DNA of 64,000 nucleotides from an uncultured Pseudomonadales bacterium (GTDB taxonomy: Bacteria > Pseudomonadota > Gammaproteobacteria > Pseudomonadales > Pseudohongiellaceae), in contig CALSTS010000002.1 of the NCBI GenBank assembly GCA_943789335.1, positions 62,001-126,000 of the forward strand. The letters are read 5' to 3'. Shown piece by piece: positions 23,300 to 45,875 of this stretch. A program made the translations under genes and the position numbers. A model generated the notes under the pieces. It was not told the DNA's origin. It worked only from the letters and a program-made list of their open reading frames with translations, and ran no database searches. Numbering within the stretch: the first letter of the stretch is position 1; every line of letters starts with the position of its first letter.

Positions 23300-24486
23300 A
23301 TGGCAAAGGAAAAGTTTGAAAGAAATAAGCCCCACGTAAACGTGGGCACGATTGGTCACGTTGACCATGGTAAAACGACATTAACAGCAGCGTTGACGCG
23401 TGTATGTGCTGAAGATCTGGGGTGGACGAGTAGACTTTGCTGAGATTGATAATGCGCCTGAAGAAAGAGAGCGCGGTATTACGATCGCAACTTCTCACGT
23501 TGAGTATGAGTCTGCCAACCGTCACTATGCTCACGTTGACTGCCCAGGTCATGCCGACTATGTAAAAACATGATTACTGGTGCTGCACAGATGGATGGCG
23601 CTATTCTGGTTTGTTCAGCAGCTGATGGCCCTATGCCTCAGACGCGTGAGCATATTCTGTTGTCACGTCAGGTTGGTGTTCCTTACATAGTGGTATTCAT
23701 GAATAAAGCCGACATGGTTGATGATGATGAGCTGCTTGAGCTTGGTTGAAATGGAAATTCGTGAGTTGTTGGACCAGTATGAGTTCCCTGGTGATGACAC
23801 GCCTATCATTATTGGTTCTGCGCTTAAAGCATTGGAAGGTGATACGTCTGATATCGGTATGCCAGCGGTTCAGAAGATTGTTGAGACTCTGGATCGTATA
23901 TCCCTGAGCCGAGACGCGATATTGAAAAGCCATTTTTGATGCCAATTGAAGATGTATTCTCTATTTCTGGTCGTGGTACGGTTGTAACTGGCCGTATTGC
24001 TCGCGGCTTGTGAAAGTTGGTGAAGAAATTGAGATCGTCGGTATTAAGGATACTCAAACTACTACCTGTACTGGTGTTGAGATGTTCCGTAAATTGCTTG
24101 ACGAAGGTCGTGCTGGTGAAAACGTTGGTGTTTTATTCGTGGTACCAAGCGTGAAGACGTTGAGCGTGGTCAGGTCTTGCTAAGCCAGGTTCAATCACTC
24201 CGCATACGAAATTTGAAGGTGAGTTTATGTTCTTTCTAAAGATGAGGGTGGACGTCATACCCCATTCTTTAAAGGTTATCGTCCTCAGTTCTATTTCGAG
24301 ACCACTGATGTAACTGGTGCTTGTGAGTTACCTGATGGCGTAGAAATGGTTATGCCTGGTGATAATGTGAAGATGGTAGTTGAACTGATTGCCCCAATCG
24401 CGATGGAAGAAGGTCAGCGTTTTGCTGTTCGTGAAGGTGGCCGTACGGTTGGAGCTGGTGTCGTAGCTAAATCATCGAATAAGTAG
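23300..24486 (+). CDS. tuf: Elongation factor Tu, with at least eight frameshifts in this sequence
   Basis: Delivers aminoacyl-tRNA to the ribosome as a GTPase. The start ([21 protein letters not shown] loop GHVDHGKT) and end ([15 protein letters not shown]) are intact, as are DCPGHADY and the NKADM GTP motifs. Between 23410 and 24235 the frame breaks repeatedly, for example GTAAAAACATG lacking one A at 23566-23576 (YVKNM), an extra G in CTTGGTTGAA near 23745 (LVEME), and missing bases near 23900, 24012, 24133, 24178 and 24226. The net length is about 7 nt short of a 397-residue EF-Tu. As tuf is essential and this is the only copy here, sequence error is the likely cause. It lies in the conserved tRNA-tuf-tRNA-secE order. 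Confidence 0.92.
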
Positions 24487-24500
24487 CTTTAAGCTTTAAG

Positions 24501-28291: not shown

Positions 28292-32375
<4,084 letters not shown>

Positions 32376-32402
32376 AACCAATTTTTCCTGACTGGTTGCT
32401 AA

Positions 32403-36648
<4,246 letters not shown>

Positions 36649-37861: not shown

Positions 37862-39952
37862 GTGGCTAGAAAAACCCCCATCAATCGCTATCGTAATATT
37901 GGTATCGTTGCTCACGTAGATGCCGGAAAAACCACGACAACTGAACGTGTGCTTTTTTATACTGGTATTTCTCACAAAATTGGTGAGGTTCATGATGGTG
38001 CTGCAACAATGGACTGGATGGAACAGGAACAGGAACGTGGGATTACCATTACCTCTGCTGCTACAACGTGTTTCTGGCAAGGTATGAACAAGCAGTTTGA
38101 TGAATACCGTATCAATATCATCGATACACCAGGACACGTTGACTTTACAATTGAAGTAGAACGTTCATTGCGTGTACTTGATGGCGCAGTAGTGGTGCTA
38201 TGTGGAAGTTCTGGAGTGCAGCCTCAAACTGAAACAGTTTGGCGTCAGGGCAATCGTTATGAAGTGCCTCGTATGGTGTTTGTTAATAAAATGGATAGAG
38301 CTGGTGCAGACTTTCTAAAAGTTGTGCAGCAAATGAAAGATAGGTTGGGTGCTAACCCTGTGCCTATCCAATTAGCTATTGGTGCCGAAGACGAGTTTAA
38401 AGGTGTAATTGACCTGGTAAAAATGAAAGAAATTCGCTGGAATGAAGATGACCAGGGGGCAACATTTGACTACGCAGAAATTCCTGAAGAAATGAGAGCA
38501 GAAGCTGATAAATGGCATGACGAAATGGTTGAAGCTGCTGCTGAAGCTACAGATGAATTGATGAATAAGTACCTTGAAGGTGAAACTTTAACTGAGGATG
38601 AAATTAAATTAGGCCTGCGTACTCGTACTCTGGCTAATGAGATCGTTCCAACATTGTGTGGTTCTGCTTTTAAAAATAAAGGTGTTCAAGCTGTATTGGA
38701 TGCAGTTATTGAATATCTACCTTCACCAACTGAAGTGGCAGCGATTCAAGGTGTATTAGAAGATGAAGAAACCATTGAAACACGTGAAGCAAAAGATGAT
38801 GCGCCATTTGCTGCATTAGCCTTTAAAATTGCGACTGACCCTTTTGTGGGTACTTTGACTTTCTTCCGAGTTTATTCAGGCACACTGAAGTCAGGGGACA
38901 CAGTCTACAATCCTTTGAAACACAAAAAAGAACGGATTGGTCGTATGGTGCAAATGCACGCCAACTCTCGTGAAGAAATCAAAGAAGTATTAGCCGGCGA
39001 TATTGCTGCTGCTATTGGCTTGAAAGACGTCACCACTGGTGAGACTTTATGTGCTGAAGATAAAAAGATCACATTAGAAAAAATGGACTTCCCGGAGCCG
39101 GTAATCTCGGTTGCGGTTGAACCTAAGACCAAAGCTGACCAGGAAAAAATGGGTATTGCTTTGGGTAAACTGGCTCAAGAAGATCCTTCTTTCCGAGTTG
39201 AAACTGATGAAGAGTCAGGTCAGACTATTATATCCGGAATGGGTGAGTTGCACCTTGATGTACTTGTCGATCGTATGCGTCGCGAATTCAGTGTTGAAGC
39301 TAATATTGGTAAACCACAAGTAGCCTATCGTGAAACCATTCGTAAAATCGTGGAAGTTGAAGGTAAGCACGTTAAACAATCTGGTGGTCGCGGACAGTAC
39401 GGCCATGTATGGCTTAAACTTGAACCATTGCCGGCTGATTCTGAATATGAATTTGTTAATGAAATTGTCGGTGGGACGATTCCCCGAGAGTACATTCCTG
39501 CAGTCGATAAAGGCGTACAAGAGCAGATGAAAAATGGCTGTTTAGCTGGTTACCCTTTATTAGCGATGAAAGTGACTTTGTATGATGGTTCATTCCATGA
39601 TGTCGACTCTTCTGAAATGGCATTTAAGATTGCTGGGTCTGTGGCACTAAAAAAAGGCGCTATAGATGCTGATGCTGCTCTGCTAGAGCCTATTATGAAA
39701 GTAGAAGTGGTAACCCCAGAAGAATATATGGGTGATGTGATGGGAGACCTGAACCGTCGTCGAGGTATTGTTCAAGGTATGGAAGATACTGCAGCAGGTA
39801 AGGTAATTGACGCTGAAGTTCCTCTGGCTGAGATGTTTGGTTATTCCACTGATTTGCGCTCTGCTACACAAGGTCGAGCGACTTACACTATGGAATTCAC
39901 TAAGTATGCTGAAGTGCCAAGTAACGTAGCTGAAACCGTCATGAAAGGCTAA
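37862..39952 (+). CDS. fusA: Elongation factor G
   Basis: 696 residues starting at GTG 37862. The G domain has [19 protein letters not shown], the switch [29 protein letters not shown] and NKMDRAGAD. Domain II follows near [15 protein letters not shown], then domains III-V with [19 protein letters not shown] and [14 protein letters not shown]. It drives translocation and, with RRF, ribosome recycling. The gene is clean, with no frameshift. In most gammaproteobacteria tufA follows immediately; here the next 280 bp hold only an inverted repeat and a terminator. Confidence 0.98.
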
Positions 39953-39958
39953 TCACTT

Positions 39959-40078
39959 AGAGATTGTTCTTTTACACTTATATGTCATTAAAAATGTGCT
40001 CAAGTGGTCACATACTATAATGTATGCTCCTTTCTTTACCGCATGTTTGACTTATCTAAGAGTAAAAGAACAATCTCT
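39959..40078. repeat. 120-bp element with 22-bp terminal inverted repeats after fusA
   Basis: The arms at 39959-39980 and 40057-40078 are complementary at 21 of 22 positions (core AGAGATTGTTCTTTTAC). The 76-bp interior contains CATACTATAATGTATG, including a TATAAT without a good -35 box. It starts 7 bp after the fusA stop, exactly where tufA is expected. It could be a long mRNA hairpin, a small non-autonomous inverted-repeat element or a scar of rearrangement. Confidence 0.7.
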
Positions 40079-40120
40079 ATTGTTAGTTAACTTGATAGTT
40101 TGGATTGAAAAGTAAAGTAT

Positions 40121-40148
40121 AAAAAAGCCCTCCAAAGAGGGCTTTTTT
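40121..40148. terminator. Bidirectional terminator between fusA and the PQQ dehydrogenase
   Basis: AAAAAAGCCCTC pairs with GAGGGCTTTTTT around CAAA. The A run and T run make it usable by both the rightward str operon and the leftward dehydrogenase gene. Confidence 0.9.
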
Positions 40149-40233
40149 ATGTATTGCTTATTTTACTTTGTATTGCTATTTTTCTGGCCGGGTTAGGTGC
40201 TGGAGTGATAGCTCCAACACCTAAGCAAAGCTT

Positions 40234-42393
40234 TTATTGATTAGGTAATTCAAATACCCATACCGATGAACTCGACTCTGCCGGTAAAGTGATTTCAGGC
40301 ACCAAGCCACCAAAAGAAGCTGTTTGAGCGCCGCCATAACCAACCACAATAGCAATATACTGCTTACCATCTACTGCAAAAGATACTGGATTAGAATTGG
40401 GCACATCTGAAAGTCTTACTTGCCATAATGGTTCACCGCTCATATCATCATAAGCAGTTAGATTTCGATCAAGTGCGCCAGCAAAAACTAAACCACCAGC
40501 AGTGGCTAATACGCCGGTAGACTGAGGAGCACGTTGGCGTTCAGTCCATGCCTGAGTCATATTTTCATTAACATTGATAGCTTGAATATGACCATATAAT
40601 CCATCACTGTCGGGGCGCGGTCGAACCATCCAATTATATCCAGCAGAGAGCGCTCCAGAACCCAAGCCTTCACCCGTAGGAATAAGATCCATACAAACTT
40701 CCACAGCAGGGACATACATCATTTGAGTTTCTGGGTTATAAGCTCCTGGGATCCAACTCCTTCCTCCACCAGCATGAGGACAAACCATTTTACGTTCACC
40801 ATCTGGATACAGTGCCATATCAACTATCTTCTTACCTGATTCAAGATCTACGCCAAGAATAAAATTTTGTAGACCCATATCGTAAGAGAGCAGGTATTCG
40901 CCGGTTTCTGCATCATTGGCATCATAAAAGCCTTGTTTACCCGCTGTCATGGAAACTCTTCTGTTTCTGCCGTCTATATTAATATCCATGATGATGCGCT
41001 CAAAAATCCAGTCCGCATCAAATTGGTCATTGTTCATATGTTGGAAATACCAGACCAGTTCTCCTGTTTCAGGCCTTAAAGCTAGAGTTGAGTTGGTGAA
41101 CAAAGCATCATTTGTAATGCCAGGCTGATTCACAGGATTTACCGTTAAAGCTGTGTCATAAGTTGGTGAAGGTGCGAAATATGCTAGCTTGGTTTCAGGA
41201 TCATAAGAACCTGCTACCCAAAAGGAACCCCCATTTCTTTCATCATAAGGGACACCATTCCAAGTATTACCACCTAATTCATCTGGCTCTGGAATTGAAT
41301 TGAAGCGCCAGAGTTTCTCTCCGGTCTCTGCATCAAGACCTTGAACGAAGCCACCGCCAGGCACAACATTAGGCTTTCGAGTCATCATGGTGCCTTGCAT
41401 AACCACACCATTTGCAACCGTTGGTCCCCCGGATATGGCACCATCTATTTCAGTTTCCCACACCAAGTTACCAGTACGCATATTGAGAGCAATAACTTTT
41501 CTATCTGAAGTCGCTGCGTATATTTTGTCTCCATAAATGGAAATATTGCGCATTAGTCTAGTGTTAATATCGTCAGCCATATCGTGACGATAATGCCAAA
41601 GTTCATCTCCTGTAACGGCATTTAAGGCCATAATGTTGTCGCCATAGCTATGGACAAACATTACACCTTCATGGATGAGGGGGGTTGATTCATTCGGACC
41701 AGCTGGTAGAGCCAGGCTCCAGGTAACACGCAGGTCTCCAACATTATCTTTATTGATTTGATTCAGAGGGCTGTATCCCGTGGCATTAGCTGTCCCACGC
41801 CAAGTCAACCATGATTCTGCGGGAGGACTATCAAGTAAGCTTTGTGTTACATCAGAAATATCGGCCAATGGATTTGGGGCTGACTGCCATTCGGGTATCA
41901 CGACGCCCGGTGCAAAACCACCTGCTGGGCCACCTCTTCTCCTAACTGCCTGACCAGAATTCAGTGTGCTGCCAGGTAGAAATAAAGCAGCCAGCTCTGC
42001 TGACTCTTGAGGTAGGGGTTCTTCGCCAGCAGCAACATCATTTTCTTGCAGGATAAAAGCGATCATATCTGCATATTGCTGTCCGCTAAACCTATTAGCC
42101 TGCCCAGGAGGCATCTCTTGGGTTTGCTCAAGTAAGGCGTCCATACTGGTACCTGCCCAACGAATTGAGAAAGAAGTCCCTTTTAAGGGCGCACCAAATT
42201 CTCCATCATTTAAATTTTCACCATGGCAGATAACACAGTTTTGTTGATAAAGCTCTTCTCCACGTTCAGCTTGGTCAGTAGTGTAATGAGCTGGATCTTC
42301 AGGCAATGGGCCTGGTTGAGCTGTAGCAGCATAGGGAGCACTGATCAAAATGAGGCTGGCTAACAGCAAAGGGTAAGATGTTATTTTTTTCAC
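40234..42393 (-). CDS. PQQ-dependent dehydrogenase with N-terminal cytochrome c domain
   Basis: 719 residues with a signal peptide ending near TAQP. A class I cytochrome c domain comes first: heme site C53-V-I-C56-H57 and an MPPGQANRF methionine region. Residues ~180-719 form an eight-blade PQQ quinoprotein propeller with W-docking repeats such as NVGDLRVTWSLALP, GELVWYFQHMNNDQFD and GEPLWQVRLSD. The order cytochrome-then-propeller is the reverse of quinohemoprotein alcohol dehydrogenases. It would oxidise an alcohol or sugar in the periplasm and pass electrons through its own heme. No pqq biosynthesis gene is nearby. It is read leftward into the fusA terminator and divergently from the next secreted protein. 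Confidence 0.85.
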   Translation of the reverse strand: MKKITSYPLLLASLILISAPYAATAQPGPLPEDPAHYTTDQAERGEELYQQNCVICHGENLNDGEFGAPLKGTSFSIRWAGTSMDALLEQTQEMPPGQANRFSGQQYADMIAFILQENDVAAGEEPLPQESAELAALFLPGSTLNSGQAVRRRGGPAGGFAPGVVIPEWQSAPNPLADISDVTQSLLDSPPAESWLTWRGTANATGYSPLNQINKDNVGDLRVTWSLALPAGPNESTPLIHEGVMFVHSYGDNIMALNAVTGDELWHYRHDMADDINTRLMRNISIYGDKIYAATSDRKVIALNMRTGNLVWETEIDGAISGGPTVANGVVMQGTMMTRKPNVVPGGGFVQGLDAETGEKLWRFNSIPEPDELGGNTWNGVPYDERNGGSFWVAGSYDPETKLAYFAPSPTYDTALTVNPVNQPGITNDALFTNSTLALRPETGELVWYFQHMNNDQFDADWIFERIIMDINIDGRNRRVSMTAGKQGFYDANDAETGEYLLSYDMGLQNFILGVDLESGKKIVDMALYPDGERKMVCPHAGGGRSWIPGAYNPETQMMYVPAVEVCMDLIPTGEGLGSGALSAGYNWMVRPRPDSDGLYGHIQAINVNENMTQAWTERQRAPQSTGVLATAGGLVFAGALDRNLTAYDDMSGEPLWQVRLSDVPNSNPVSFAVDGKQYIAIVVGYGGAQTASFGGLVPEITLPAESSSSVWVFELPNQ

Positions 42394-42776
42394 TAGTAAA
42401 AACTCCTTAATAAGGGATGCTTGGTTTTAGTCGGACAAGCATACCAATTCTAGGGTTTTGTTCAATATGAATTTTTTTTATTCCTTTAAATTTAAACAAT
42501 TCTAGGCTTGATTATTTTGGTTAATGGTTTGATGATTAGTGTCTTAGGTAATAACAATAATAAAAATTAGTATTTTGCCTAGAAAAAGCGCTTAATTCGA
42601 GATCGGCTTATTAGTTGAAGCCGTTGGATAAAGCTGAAAATATGATAAAAAAAATAAGTTAAAAAATATAAGAAGAGAATATTTAAAATTGCAACTTGCT
42701 TAATAAGCTCGTTTAATTTTGTTTAAGCTTAATAAAAACAACTAAATACTATAAGTCGATTTTCACAGGGGGAAAT
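42394..42776. other. 383-bp AT-rich divergent intergenic region
   Basis: Separates the leftward PQQ dehydrogenase from the rightward secreted protein, so it should hold both promoters. It is about 75 % A+T; I see no convincing -35/-10 pair or operator dyad by eye. The GGGGGAAAT just before 42777 is the ribosome-binding site of the rightward gene. Confidence 0.45.
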
Positions 42777-43811
42777 ATGACGCTATCTAAACATTTTAAA
42801 ACTATTTTTTTGAGTGTATGCCTTGCGGCATCAGGATCAGTTTTTGCTCAGCCAGGACAAGGTAACTTGCCTGATGCAATTCCGTTCCCAATGGAATTTG
42901 AAACTTCCAGAGAGCACTATGATTACTTAATGGATCACTATAAGGGTGGCGTCCAACATGATTATTTGAGCGTGCCTAAATGGGAAGGCCTTTGGTCGAC
43001 TTCGGCACATCAGGCTAGGAATAACCTATTATTTATGGATGAAGATAATGAAATTATTCCAGGTATATTGACGGAAGAATATGAAGCTGCTTTTCGTTAT
43101 CGTCTTGATCTGGGGAATCAAGCCTTTAATGCTGGTGTTGACTATGACCGCTTAACCACATGTGAGCCAGCTGGTATCCCACGTTGGTTCAGAGAGCCTT
43201 ATGTCCGTGAGTTTTTAAACACGCCAACTTATTCTCTATGGCATAACGATTTGGCTAACGACACACGTCGTATTTATATTAACCAAGAACATGTAAATAT
43301 TGATGGAACACATTTTGCTGCTGGAGATAGCATAGGTTTTTGGGCTGAAGATGAAGAATTAGGTGATGTATTAGTGGTACATGCTGAAGATATTTATCCA
43401 GCTGATTTTTTTCGTGGTATGCCGCCTACCAGCAATCAGGCAGAAACAGTTGAAATTTGGTATGAATGGTGGGATGCAGAAAGTAACGAGATGAAAATAG
43501 CGGTCAATGTCTACTTTTATGATGCCTTGATGCTAGAAGAGCCTTTAAATATTATTTATACCTATCGTTATCGTCAGGATATGGAAGATGCTGGCTTAAG
43601 AATACGATATTGGGAATGCGCTCAAAACCAAAATACTTATTTAACTTTTGATGAAGAAGGTAGACCGAATACACAGTATCGACTACCAGGTGATCCTGGC
43701 TATCTAGATCCTCGAGGCACGCCTTCAACTCGCAACCCAGATTTACCTCCAGGTTTAACAGGTCAGGAAAAAAGCCCTGTATTTGATGATCAGTTTGATT
43801 TTGCCTTTTAA
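42777..43811 (+). CDS. Secreted protein of unknown function, upstream partner of DUF6152 gene
   Basis: 344 residues with a signal peptide ending VFAQ. The mature part contains WEGLWSTSAHQARN, YEAAFRYRLDLGNQAFNAG, CEPAGIPRWFREPYVREF, RRIYINQEHVNIDG, GDSIGFWAEDEELGDVLVVHAEDI and YDALMLEEPLNIIYTYRYR. This order (a 'CxPxGxPR' segment, then a GHSxGxWxxD-like segment, then a strand reporting the change) resembles a family of periplasmic proteins often seen beside PQQ dehydrogenases and DUF6152 proteins in marine proteobacteria; I know of no assigned function. It has two cysteines. A 58-bp gap to the DUF6152 gene and no terminator indicate an operon. Confidence 0.6.
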   Translation: MTLSKHFKTIFLSVCLAASGSVFAQPGQGNLPDAIPFPMEFETSREHYDYLMDHYKGGVQHDYLSVPKWEGLWSTSAHQARNNLLFMDEDNEIIPGILTEEYEAAFRYRLDLGNQAFNAGVDYDRLTTCEPAGIPRWFREPYVREFLNTPTYSLWHNDLANDTRRIYINQEHVNIDGTHFAAGDSIGFWAEDEELGDVLVVHAEDIYPADFFRGMPPTSNQAETVEIWYEWWDAESNEMKIAVNVYFYDALMLEEPLNIIYTYRYRQDMEDAGLRIRYWECAQNQNTYLTFDEEGRPNTQYRLPGDPGYLDPRGTPSTRNPDLPPGLTGQEKSPVFDDQFDFAF

Positions 43812-43869
43812 TCGGCATTGATTATTTAAATGAATGTTTTGAGTAAGAACTTATTTTGAGGAAAAACTT

Positions 43870-44343
43870 ATGAAAAATTCACTAAAAAAATTATCAGCTA
43901 TCACTCTGGCTGCTCTGACATTTGGTGCTGTAAATTACGCCTCTGCGCATCATAGCTTTGCGATGTTTGATAGAGCTACTGAAGAAGTTATCAGCGGACA
44001 AGTGGTTCGCTGGGCTTTTAACAGTCCGCATGTTGCGCTTTATATTAGAGACGACGCTGGTACAGTCTTCGCTTTTGAAGGTGCTGCGCCACCAAGAATG
44101 ATCGAAAGTACTCCATCTATGACTGGATATACTTTTCAACCCGGCGATCAAGTAACAATTGTTCAATGTCCTTTGCGTGATGGCAGGAACGGTGGAGCAG
44201 TAGGTCTGGTGTTAAAAGATGATGTTTGGTATGACCCCAGCGATGGTGGTTGCGGTGCAGATAGGGATGCCTGGCAAGATTGGTATGCAAAAGGTTATAT
44301 GTCCAAGCAGGAAGCAATGGATGCAGGCGAAGAAATGCCTTAG
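43870..44343 (+). CDS. DUF6152 family secreted protein
   Basis: 157 residues with a signal peptide ending YASA. The mature N-terminus HHSFAMFDRATEEVISGQVVRWAFNSPH is the DUF6152 signature: a histidine pair at the very N-terminus followed by a small OB-like beta barrel (VALYIRDDAGTVFAFEGAAPPRM, GDQVTIVQCPLRDGRNGG). N-terminal histidines exposed after signal cleavage can bind copper, as in histidine-brace or CopC-like proteins, but that is speculation here. The second gene of a two-gene unit closed by a strong terminator. Confidence 0.8.
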   Translation: MKNSLKKLSAITLAALTFGAVNYASAHHSFAMFDRATEEVISGQVVRWAFNSPHVALYIRDDAGTVFAFEGAAPPRMIESTPSMTGYTFQPGDQVTIVQCPLRDGRNGGAVGLVLKDDVWYDPSDGGCGADRDAWQDWYAKGYMSKQEAMDAGEEMP

Positions 44344-44381
44344 TAACACTCTATTAAGGTGCTTTGCAGTATGCAAACTTT

Positions 44382-44408
44382 AAAGGGCTTCCAAAGAAGC
44401 CCTTTTTT
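44382..44408 (+). terminator. Rho-independent terminator after the DUF6152 gene
   Basis: AAAGGGCTTC pairs with GAAGCCCTTT around CAAA, followed by a run of T. Confidence 0.92.
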
Positions 44409-44465
44409 ATATTCGGCCAAGCGAACAACATGCTAGTATTTTACCTTTCAGGCTAAATTAGACTG

Positions 44466-45383
44466 ATGTTTAACAAAAAATATTTCCAATTGTGTTTTGT
44501 ATCCTGCCTTTATGCAGCTGCTGCGCTAGCCTATGGTGCAAACTTTACCTACGATGGTATTAATAGACGTGATCCCGTTAATGAACTTGAACGAAACGTT
44601 ATTGGAGCTACTGGACAAATATTCTGTAAAGATACCAAGACAGGGGGGCAAAGAGTAAGCACTGGTTTTTTTCTTGATATTGGACAAGGTAGCGAGAATT
44701 CTCTATTGATCGCATCTGGACATAGTTTTCGAGATGCCAGTAATAATGAGTTTCACAATGAATGCAGATTCAAGTCTTATGGCTCAGAACAGATGATTGC
44801 TTTAGAAAATAATGTTACAGGTGATCTAGTTCAGCCAAACCCTGCGGATTATATTAAAAATGATTGGGGGCTTAGTGTTTTATCTGCTGATACAACTATA
44901 ACTAGCAAGGCTATCCTCTTAAGTAACAGAACTTATCAAGAATTGCACAGTCTACTTCAAGCGGGGCTTGGCGAAATTAAGTTCTATGGGGGGAATTTAA
45001 TTCCCGATCAGGGAGAAGCAAGAATTCAGATTTCTGACAACTGTTCTATTTGGCAACCTACTCCCAGAGCAATTTTAGGTGCGGGCCATTCACTTTATAC
45101 GAATTGTGACTCTACTGGGTCAAGTTCAGGAGGCGCGTTAGTTATTGAGCTCCATGATGGCTCTGTTGAAGCAATTGGTATTATGTTCGGCGGGATCCAC
45201 ACAGTTACAACGGTTAACCGTATACTAGGAGAAAATGCGTCAACAATGACAATCAAAGATGTCGAATACGCTATTGACATGATCCCTAGTCCAGAAACTA
45301 TTATAAATATTGCTGTCCCGTTGATTCCAGGGATGCGAGAACAAAGTTTGAATGATCTTTTTGATGAATTCTTGAATTTTTAA
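44466..45383 (+). CDS. Secreted trypsin-like serine protease
   Basis: 305 residues with a signal peptide ending AYGA. The chymotrypsin-fold triad is visible as H86 (IASGHSF), D133 (KNDWGLSVL) and S221 (SSSGGALV, in place of GDSGG). GFFLDIG is the usual strand before the histidine, and GIMFGGIHT the one after the serine. Five to six cysteines in the mature part allow disulfides, consistent with export. It is monofunctional with no PDZ domain, so not DegP/DegS-like. It is the last gene of the block inserted between fusA and rpsJ and has no obvious partner. Confidence 0.85.
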   Translation: MFNKKYFQLCFVSCLYAAAALAYGANFTYDGINRRDPVNELERNVIGATGQIFCKDTKTGGQRVSTGFFLDIGQGSENSLLIASGHSFRDASNNEFHNECRFKSYGSEQMIALENNVTGDLVQPNPADYIKNDWGLSVLSADTTITSKAILLSNRTYQELHSLLQAGLGEIKFYGGNLIPDQGEARIQISDNCSIWQPTPRAILGAGHSLYTNCDSTGSSSGGALVIELHDGSVEAIGIMFGGIHTVTTVNRILGENASTMTIKDVEYAIDMIPSPETIINIAVPLIPGMREQSLNDLFDEFLNF

Positions 45384-45444
45384 GAGTTTTTACCCGAAAT
45401 CGCCCTAAAGCCTGAAAATATTCACTCCTAACAGTATTCAATGC

Positions 45445-45473
45445 TTGACAGTGGTATAGCGCATCTTTACAAT
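45445..45473 (+). promoter_or_regulatory. S10 operon promoter
   Basis: A perfect -35 TTGACA (45445-45450), a 17-bp spacer and TACAAT (45468-45473). It lies about 90 bp before rpsJ and would drive the S10-spc transcript independently of the str operon. Confidence 0.85.
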
Positions 45474-45530
45474 TTGCGCTCTTTTTTCGAGGTGGAAAAG
45501 GGTCTTCCCTGTGCCTCCGTATGAAAAATA

Positions 45531-45543
45531 GTTCTTTAACAAT
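45531..45543 (+). promoter_or_regulatory. boxA-like antitermination element in the S10 leader
   Basis: GTTCTTTAACAAT resembles the NusB-S10 boxA TGCTCTTTAACA and sits in the leader just before the rpsJ ribosome-binding site. A GAGG...CCTC hairpin-forming stretch lies upstream (45489-45518). Since S10 itself is NusE, a boxA before its gene would be a sensible feedback point; this is inference. Confidence 0.4.
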
Positions 45544-45563
45544 AAACAGGAGATGTTGGTCGC

Positions 45564-45875
45564 ATGCAGAACCAGCGAATCAGAATACGTCTAAAAGCCT
45601 TTGATCATGGGCTTATTGATAAGTCTACTCTGGAAATAGTAGAAACTGTAAAACGTACTGGAGCACAAGTGAAGGGTCCTATTCCTTTACCGACTCGAAA
45701 AGAGCGTTTTACTATATTAGTTTCTCCGCATGTAAATAAAGATGCTCGTGATCAGTACGAGATTAGAACGCATAAACGCCTCCTGGATATTGTAGAACCA
45801 ACGGAAAAAACCGTTGATGCTTTGATGAAGCTTGATTTGGCTGCCGGTGTTGAAGTGCAGATCAGCTTGGGTTAA
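45564..45875 (+). CDS. rpsJ: 30S ribosomal protein S10 (NusE)
   Basis: 103 residues, same as E. coli. [44 protein letters not shown] and the loop [12 protein letters not shown] are conserved. It binds in the 30S head and, with NusB, the boxA antitermination signal. A 222-bp gap separates it from rplC, longer than in most gammaproteobacteria. Confidence 0.98.

Follow-up and report, generated by a model that had tools for sequence, protein, structure and literature searches.

Differential loss of duplicate tuf genes was reportedly described by Lathe and Bork in 2001. Insertions into the bacterial gene cluster that includes the str and S10 operons are treated in Brandis 2021 (PMC8046335), excerpts of which describe how operon pairs in this cluster were generally parted first by a small number of inserted genes. 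According to these excerpts, one gammaproteobacterial clade has gained bfd-bfr between str and S10, a likely route is duplication with subsequent loss, and for P38 nothing points to a transfer from a distant species. Here we describe the junction of the two operons in an uncultured Pseudomonadales bacterium of the family Pseudohongiellaceae, found in a stretch of 64,000 nucleotides (the window; C2:62001-126000) of its 10-contig genome (G000; 2.36 Mb, 91.4% complete). The tufA gene is absent from the slot between fusA, with which the str operon ends here, and rpsJ, the first gene of the S10 operon, and four other genes stand in its place. Throughout the genus other genes, at least two of them probably the lineage's own, have taken the place of tufA, a replacement that is old and ordinary in kind; we consider it very probable that the locus is an inherited rearrangement of a known type, in which tufA was lost and the slot later filled.

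As in the tuf losses of Lathe and Bork, one of two ancient copies is gone, but here the slot has been refilled. Like the str/S10 insertions in the excerpts of Brandis 2021 (PMC8046335), the locus holds a few unrelated genes between the operons and is inherited within a clade, whereas it differs from them in having lost tufA as well and in carrying cargo of secreted type; those excerpts do not describe this lineage. Among the five of 1,855 papers listed for DUF6152 or pyrroloquinoline quinone (PQQ), none dealt with DUF6152 or with this block, and a literature search on UBA5109 returned no paper.

In the window, fusA (encoding EF-G; 37862-39952, plus strand; TIGR00484, 1209.5 bits) and rpsJ (45564-45875, plus strand; TIGR01049, 149.6 bits) are separated by 5,611 bp from stop codon to ATG. 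Both flanks are intact, with fusA, rpsJ and rplC as open frames and an operon spacing below 10 kb. Inside lie the gene for a PQQ/cytochrome protein (40234-42393, minus strand) and, all on the plus strand, those for a 344-amino-acid (344-aa) secreted-type protein (42777-43811), a DUF6152 protein (43870-44343; PF19649, 49.8 bits against a cut-off of 27) and a 305-aa secreted-type protein, a putative trypsin-like protease (44466-45383). No remnant of tuf was found in the interval, the best tblastn match covering 80 positions at 24% (E 0.42) and blastn giving none. An earlier note on this DNA, made from the letters alone, had described the absence of tufA and a four-gene block on both strands with terminators; coordinates and open reading frames bear this out, including terminator-like hairpins at 40117-40152 and 44382-44405, and its labels for the PQQ/cytochrome and DUF6152 proteins agree with Pfam matches (PF01011, PF13442 and PF19649).

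To place the arrangement among relatives, rpsJ, tuf and fusA were located in 57 genomes (the window's own and 56 others), with tufA called where a tuf lay at most 2.5 kb upstream of rpsJ and/or at most 1.5 kb after fusA. The slot keeps its tuf in 24 genomes, while in 23 fusA and rpsJ lie on different contigs or one gene was not found. In the other 10 the two genes share a contig with no tuf between them, and all 10 belong to this genus (G000-G004) or to its sister genus g2 (G005, G012, G021, G026 and G031). The gap in g2 is 234-275 bp and lacks tuf in all five genomes surveyed. In the five of this genus tuf is likewise never found between fusA and rpsJ, being located on the secE side only, and the interval measures 5611 bp in G000, 5238 in G001, 1197 in G002, 5577 in G003 and 3867 in G004. 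All four genes are present in G001 and G003, in the order and orientation of G000, while G004 carries the PQQ and 305-aa genes and G002 the 305-aa gene alone; genes thus stand in the slot in every genus genome, the 305-aa gene in each of them, as shared descent would have it. The four relatives match separate public assemblies (JAQWMX010000013.1, DHZH01000006.1, JAURLP010000019.1 and NVWI01000002.1, respectively). A sixth locus, L079 (JASBRM010000254.1, a 3.8-kb contig), reads DUF6152, 305-aa gene, rpsJ, rplC; the contig comes from a metagenome-assembled genome labelled Neptuniibacter yet has the slot arrangement of this genus, and is probably mis-binned. Another relative, G033 (L019), keeps tufA and has about 1 kb of extra DNA between tufA and rpsJ, in which a long open frame is absent. 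This synteny comparison speaks against the recent insertion that the earlier note had envisaged: genes occupy the slot throughout the genus, tufA is missing in g2 too, and that note had itself held that relatives sharing the arrangement would make it lineage-typical.

The main genome tree was built from ten proteins (nusG to fusA) of 21 genomes, with rpoB and rpoC of G000 left out; it replaced an earlier ten-gene tree, discarded because frame-broken rpoB, rpoC and tuf pieces of G000 had misplaced that genome. G031 was left out of the main tree and placed in a second, weakly resolved tree of fusA, rpsG and rpsL only. The main tree unites this genus with four g2 genomes at a support of 100 and gives the genus alone 100 as well, and since tufA is missing in both genera, parsimony points to one loss of tufA before they split. 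Within the genus G002 is the first branch in both trees, the other four being held together with a support of 98 in the fusA-rpsG-rpsL tree and 67 in the main tree.

Two of the four cargo genes appear to have come from within the lineage. The 344-aa protein found no match in Pfam, NCBIfam or PDB sequence searches, and each genus genome yields 4-6 matches to its family at E<=1e-8, a count that includes distant ones and one two-piece copy. A DUF6152 gene adjoins eight of the 12 non-slot genus copies examined (four are without one) and all five copies from g2 and g8; further loci of the family include G000:C6:103000-116000 (L082) and G002:C6:166000-180000 (L084). Midpoint-rooted gene trees of 26, 22 and 15 sequences were drawn from 34 chosen loci, sequences with less than 70% query coverage being dropped. 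In the 344-aa tree the slot copies group together (96) inside a larger clade made up of nine genus sequences (100). The DUF6152 tree repeats this shape at weaker support, 47 for the slot copies alone and 92 once a G002 copy is added. Because the slot copies nest among genus paralogues, the 344-aa/DUF6152 pair is most likely a duplicate of a gene pair held elsewhere in the genus, which goes against the earlier note's notion of outside genes. A structure model of the 344-aa protein (predicted local distance difference test, pLDDT, 64) matched nothing in Foldseek at E<=0.001, and VIA-align 2 returned FABP/lipocalin-like barrels only, with Z of about 6, a similarity that may reflect a common arrangement alone; on this model a lipocalin-like barrel is weakly suggested.

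The PQQ protein combines an N-terminal cytochrome c domain (PF13442) with a C-terminal beta-propeller of the PQQ-dehydrogenase type (PF01011, 210.3 bits against a cut-off of 26.7). It resembles quinoprotein alcohol dehydrogenases, with 4cvb_A as the best PDB sequence match (propeller aligned over residues 181-718, E 3.3e-77), and scores 349.8 bits with the PQQ-dependent methanol/ethanol dehydrogenase model TIGR03075, under the curated cut-off of 480.05. In type II quinohaemoproteins the cytochrome domain follows the propeller; the protein described here is unlike them, since its cytochrome domain precedes the propeller. In the gene tree the slot PQQ protein groups with a G002 protein from another place (100), about 60% identical to it; the nearest PQQ relative in G002 is on another contig than the slot. 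PqqE was not detected at E<=1e-20 in any of the five genus genomes, in a search that had no positive control, as none of 14 controls scored above the family cut-off and no producer of PQQ was among them. If this absence is true, the enzyme would need imported PQQ, or would not use PQQ; use of imported PQQ by Gram-negative bacteria is reported in an excerpt of PMC12124388.

The 305-aa protein is the constant occupant of the slot. Trypsin-like (PA-clan) proteases show His in a GH context, an Asp, and Ser in an SGG context, and the 305-aa protein carries the ordered His-Asp-Ser set of a PA-clan serine protease, with H86, D133 and S221 invariant in all five genus members. It has no Pfam match in any of the five, none in NCBIfam and no useful PDB sequence match, and its AlphaFold2 model (pLDDT 37.8) is unusable. 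The earlier note's trypsin-like protease therefore holds at the level of the motif and lacks a family profile or a useful structural match; going by that motif, we call the protein a putative trypsin-like protease. The gene occurs in five of 137 family genomes, namely the five of this genus, and in one of 390 genomes of an order-wide sample, the window's own, the other genus members evidently not being in that sample. A search of named genomes gave five loci, all with these same neighbours wherever the surroundings are visible, and in all six known loci the gene lies directly upstream of rpsJ. No terminator-like site was found between the two genes in the window. On this layout the 305-aa gene might now be part of the ribosomal-protein cluster, with read-through feeding S10 expression, a thought to which we give little credence; if it were true, a genus-specific secreted protease would be a partner of the translation operons.

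The cargo is both old and maintained. Rates of nonsynonymous (dN) and synonymous (dS) substitution were computed for the cargo genes beside fusA between G000 and G001, G003 or G004. With dN/dS of 0.04-0.09, all four cargo genes are under purifying selection. Their dS (1.07-2.30) equals or exceeds that of fusA for the same genome pair (1.05-1.54) in nine of 10 comparisons; rpsG gives 0.65 between G000 and G003, and for the 305-aa gene dS is saturated between G000 and G002. Values so near saturation exclude a recent arrival and preclude fine dating. The slot PQQ gene of G004 (L013) contains one in-frame stop.

The boundaries of the block are also shared within the genus. A bidirectional terminator, AAAAAAGCCCTC-loop-GAGGGCTTTTTT, was found by hairpin search at 40117-40152, and the pattern AAA-GCCCTC-loop-GAGGGC-TTTT follows fusA in all five genus members and in none of ten intervals from other genomes, in five of which tufA follows fusA. 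Six sub-threshold Rfam matches were obtained between 37000 and 46300 at E up to 1, all over this hairpin. Directly 3' of fusA lies an inverted repeat (39958-40079; arms of 26 nt, 92% complementary, 70 nt apart) with an RNA fold z of -6.34. A mobile repeat was rejected as its identity, only the repeat's own site matching in G000 (on both strands) and G002 giving one 28-bp match; G003 shows a similar loop sequence between different arms, and G004 has a hairpin of its own in the same interval. The terminator-like hairpin after the DUF6152 gene (44382-44405) is on the plus strand.

On the S10 side, a promoter-like site, TTGACA-17-TACAAT (45445-45473, plus strand), scores 11/12 in all six loci of the genus. 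The corresponding place in g2 has a site in 5/5 genomes at 9-10/12, a score that shuffles of the stretch reach in 9-77 of 200. Among tufA-bearing relatives 13 of 14 score at least 10 (shuffles, 0-8 of 200), the exception being G018, whose tufA is frame-broken in its assembly; in G007 and G044 the site lies further upstream of rpsJ (-196 and -161). Across the whole interval, promoter-like matches number 10 against a shuffle mean of 17, so that the other promoter-like matches in it are meaningless; terminator-like sites number 8 against a mean of 5.0. E. coli has a separate S10 promoter. The consensus-like site seen by the earlier note is present, and the gain that it inferred is not borne out: with such a site in tufA-bearing relatives too, the S10 promoter is most likely ancestral. 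The following S10 leader (45468-45563) holds blocks conserved across the genus and g2, TTTGCGCTCTTTTTTCG and GTTCTTTAA, has no Rfam match there and is possibly the S10 autoregulatory leader.

The one tuf found in the assembly occupies the tufB position (23301-24487, plus strand), in the order tRNA-Tyr/Gly/Thr, tuf, tRNA-Trp, secE. Other matches to a tuf query in the 2.36-Mb genome are other translational GTPases, judged from score and length, and the whole-genome count of one locus (about 23,300-24,490) upholds the earlier statement that only the tuf next to secE remains. Each of G000-G004 (91-97% complete) has one tuf locus, the tRNA context being known from the window, and in any of them, G000 at 91.4% included, a second copy may sit in the missing part. 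An excerpt of PMC5574714 attributes 66% of E. coli EF-Tu to tufA, so the surviving tufB presumably had to compensate. Compared with G001-G003, the window's tuf has ten private 1-bp indels, which break its frame and of which two at one point could represent one event; rpoB has nine and rpoC thirteen, with a 5-base insertion at the end of rpoC in addition, and there are none in nusG, rplK, rplA, rplJ, rplL, rpsL, rpsG and fusA. These indels (window 23301-24487 and 30081-34044) are probably patches of uncorrected read or assembly error rather than signs of pseudogenes.

Such patches, with tuf among them, are one reason to ask whether fusA and the block were joined in error, as a chimera at a tuf repeat. 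Several str-operon contigs of relatives are about 16 kb long (16,064, 16,068, 16,078, 16,136, 16,147, 16,152 and 16,164 bases), as would happen if short-read assemblies broke at two near-identical copies of tuf. Yet the chance of a misassembly here is minute: rpsL, rpsG and fusA are free of private frameshifting indels, the four block genes are open frames, and the same fusA-PQQ and 305-aa-rpsJ neighbourhoods recur in the separate assemblies G001, G003 and G004. The genus arrangement, found in some form in four further separate public assemblies, is a strong argument against an artefact, and in all ten linked genomes lacking tuf the contig continues from fusA into rpsJ. That this species recently captured foreign genes into a fresh tufA scar is also very improbable. 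Neither the family genomes nor the order sample showed the 305-aa protein in another genus, so that this gene at least could be foreign, but related species carry the same genes at this place with synonymous divergence like that of fusA, tufA was already missing in the sister genus, and two of the four cargo genes group with genus paralogues. Of the proposal that tufA was lost and outside genes captured at this site, the loss and the insertion of genes there stand, while recency and outside origin are not supported. Nor does recombination between the two tuf copies, the route suggested earlier, fit the gene order: the copies are direct repeats flanking secE-rpoBC-str, and crossing-over from one to the other would take out rpoB, rpoC and fusA and should be lethal, which makes a local deletion more likely.

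An inherited loss followed by filling would have run as follows. By parsimony, a local deletion between fusA and the S10 promoter would have removed tufA in the ancestor of this genus and g2, which kept tufB; the stem of the genus would next have gained the str-operon terminator and the 305-aa gene, an order suggested by their present distribution; and the PQQ gene and the 344-aa/DUF6152 pair, judging from slot content, would then have entered between fusA and the 305-aa gene. The str operon would end at its own terminator and S10 would run from its ancestral promoter, so that the block would lie between two separately transcribed operons and break neither. In a variant that we regard as possible but rather unlikely, all of the block's genes reached the genus ancestor together, and G002 and G004 later lost some by pruning. 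The main tree joins G004 with G001 (90), from which a loss of the pair in G004 would follow; against pruning, G002, the first branch, has the 305-aa gene alone in its 1,197 bp and its nearest PQQ relative elsewhere. Several points weigh against the stepwise history as well. The fusA-rpsG-rpsL tree puts G004 outside G000, G001 and G003 (85), at odds with the main tree, and the order of gains and losses within the genus does not appear to be settled by the trees. The tufA-bearing genus g8 is placed as the next branch with a support of 63 only, and G031, placed from a partial fusA, fell outside g2 (19, with g8); the g2 count leaves out a sixth g2 genome, G062. For the PQQ gene, dS between G000 and G004 (1.30) is lower than that of fusA (1.54), and the 305-aa gene has no relatives outside the genus against which to test its origin.

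Taken as an inherited replacement of tufA, the locus is a clear case of how a highly conserved cluster is opened: the duplicate was deleted first, and the gap was filled later, partly by the lineage's own duplicates. The flanking operons appear undisturbed, and the published picture is illustrated rather than changed.

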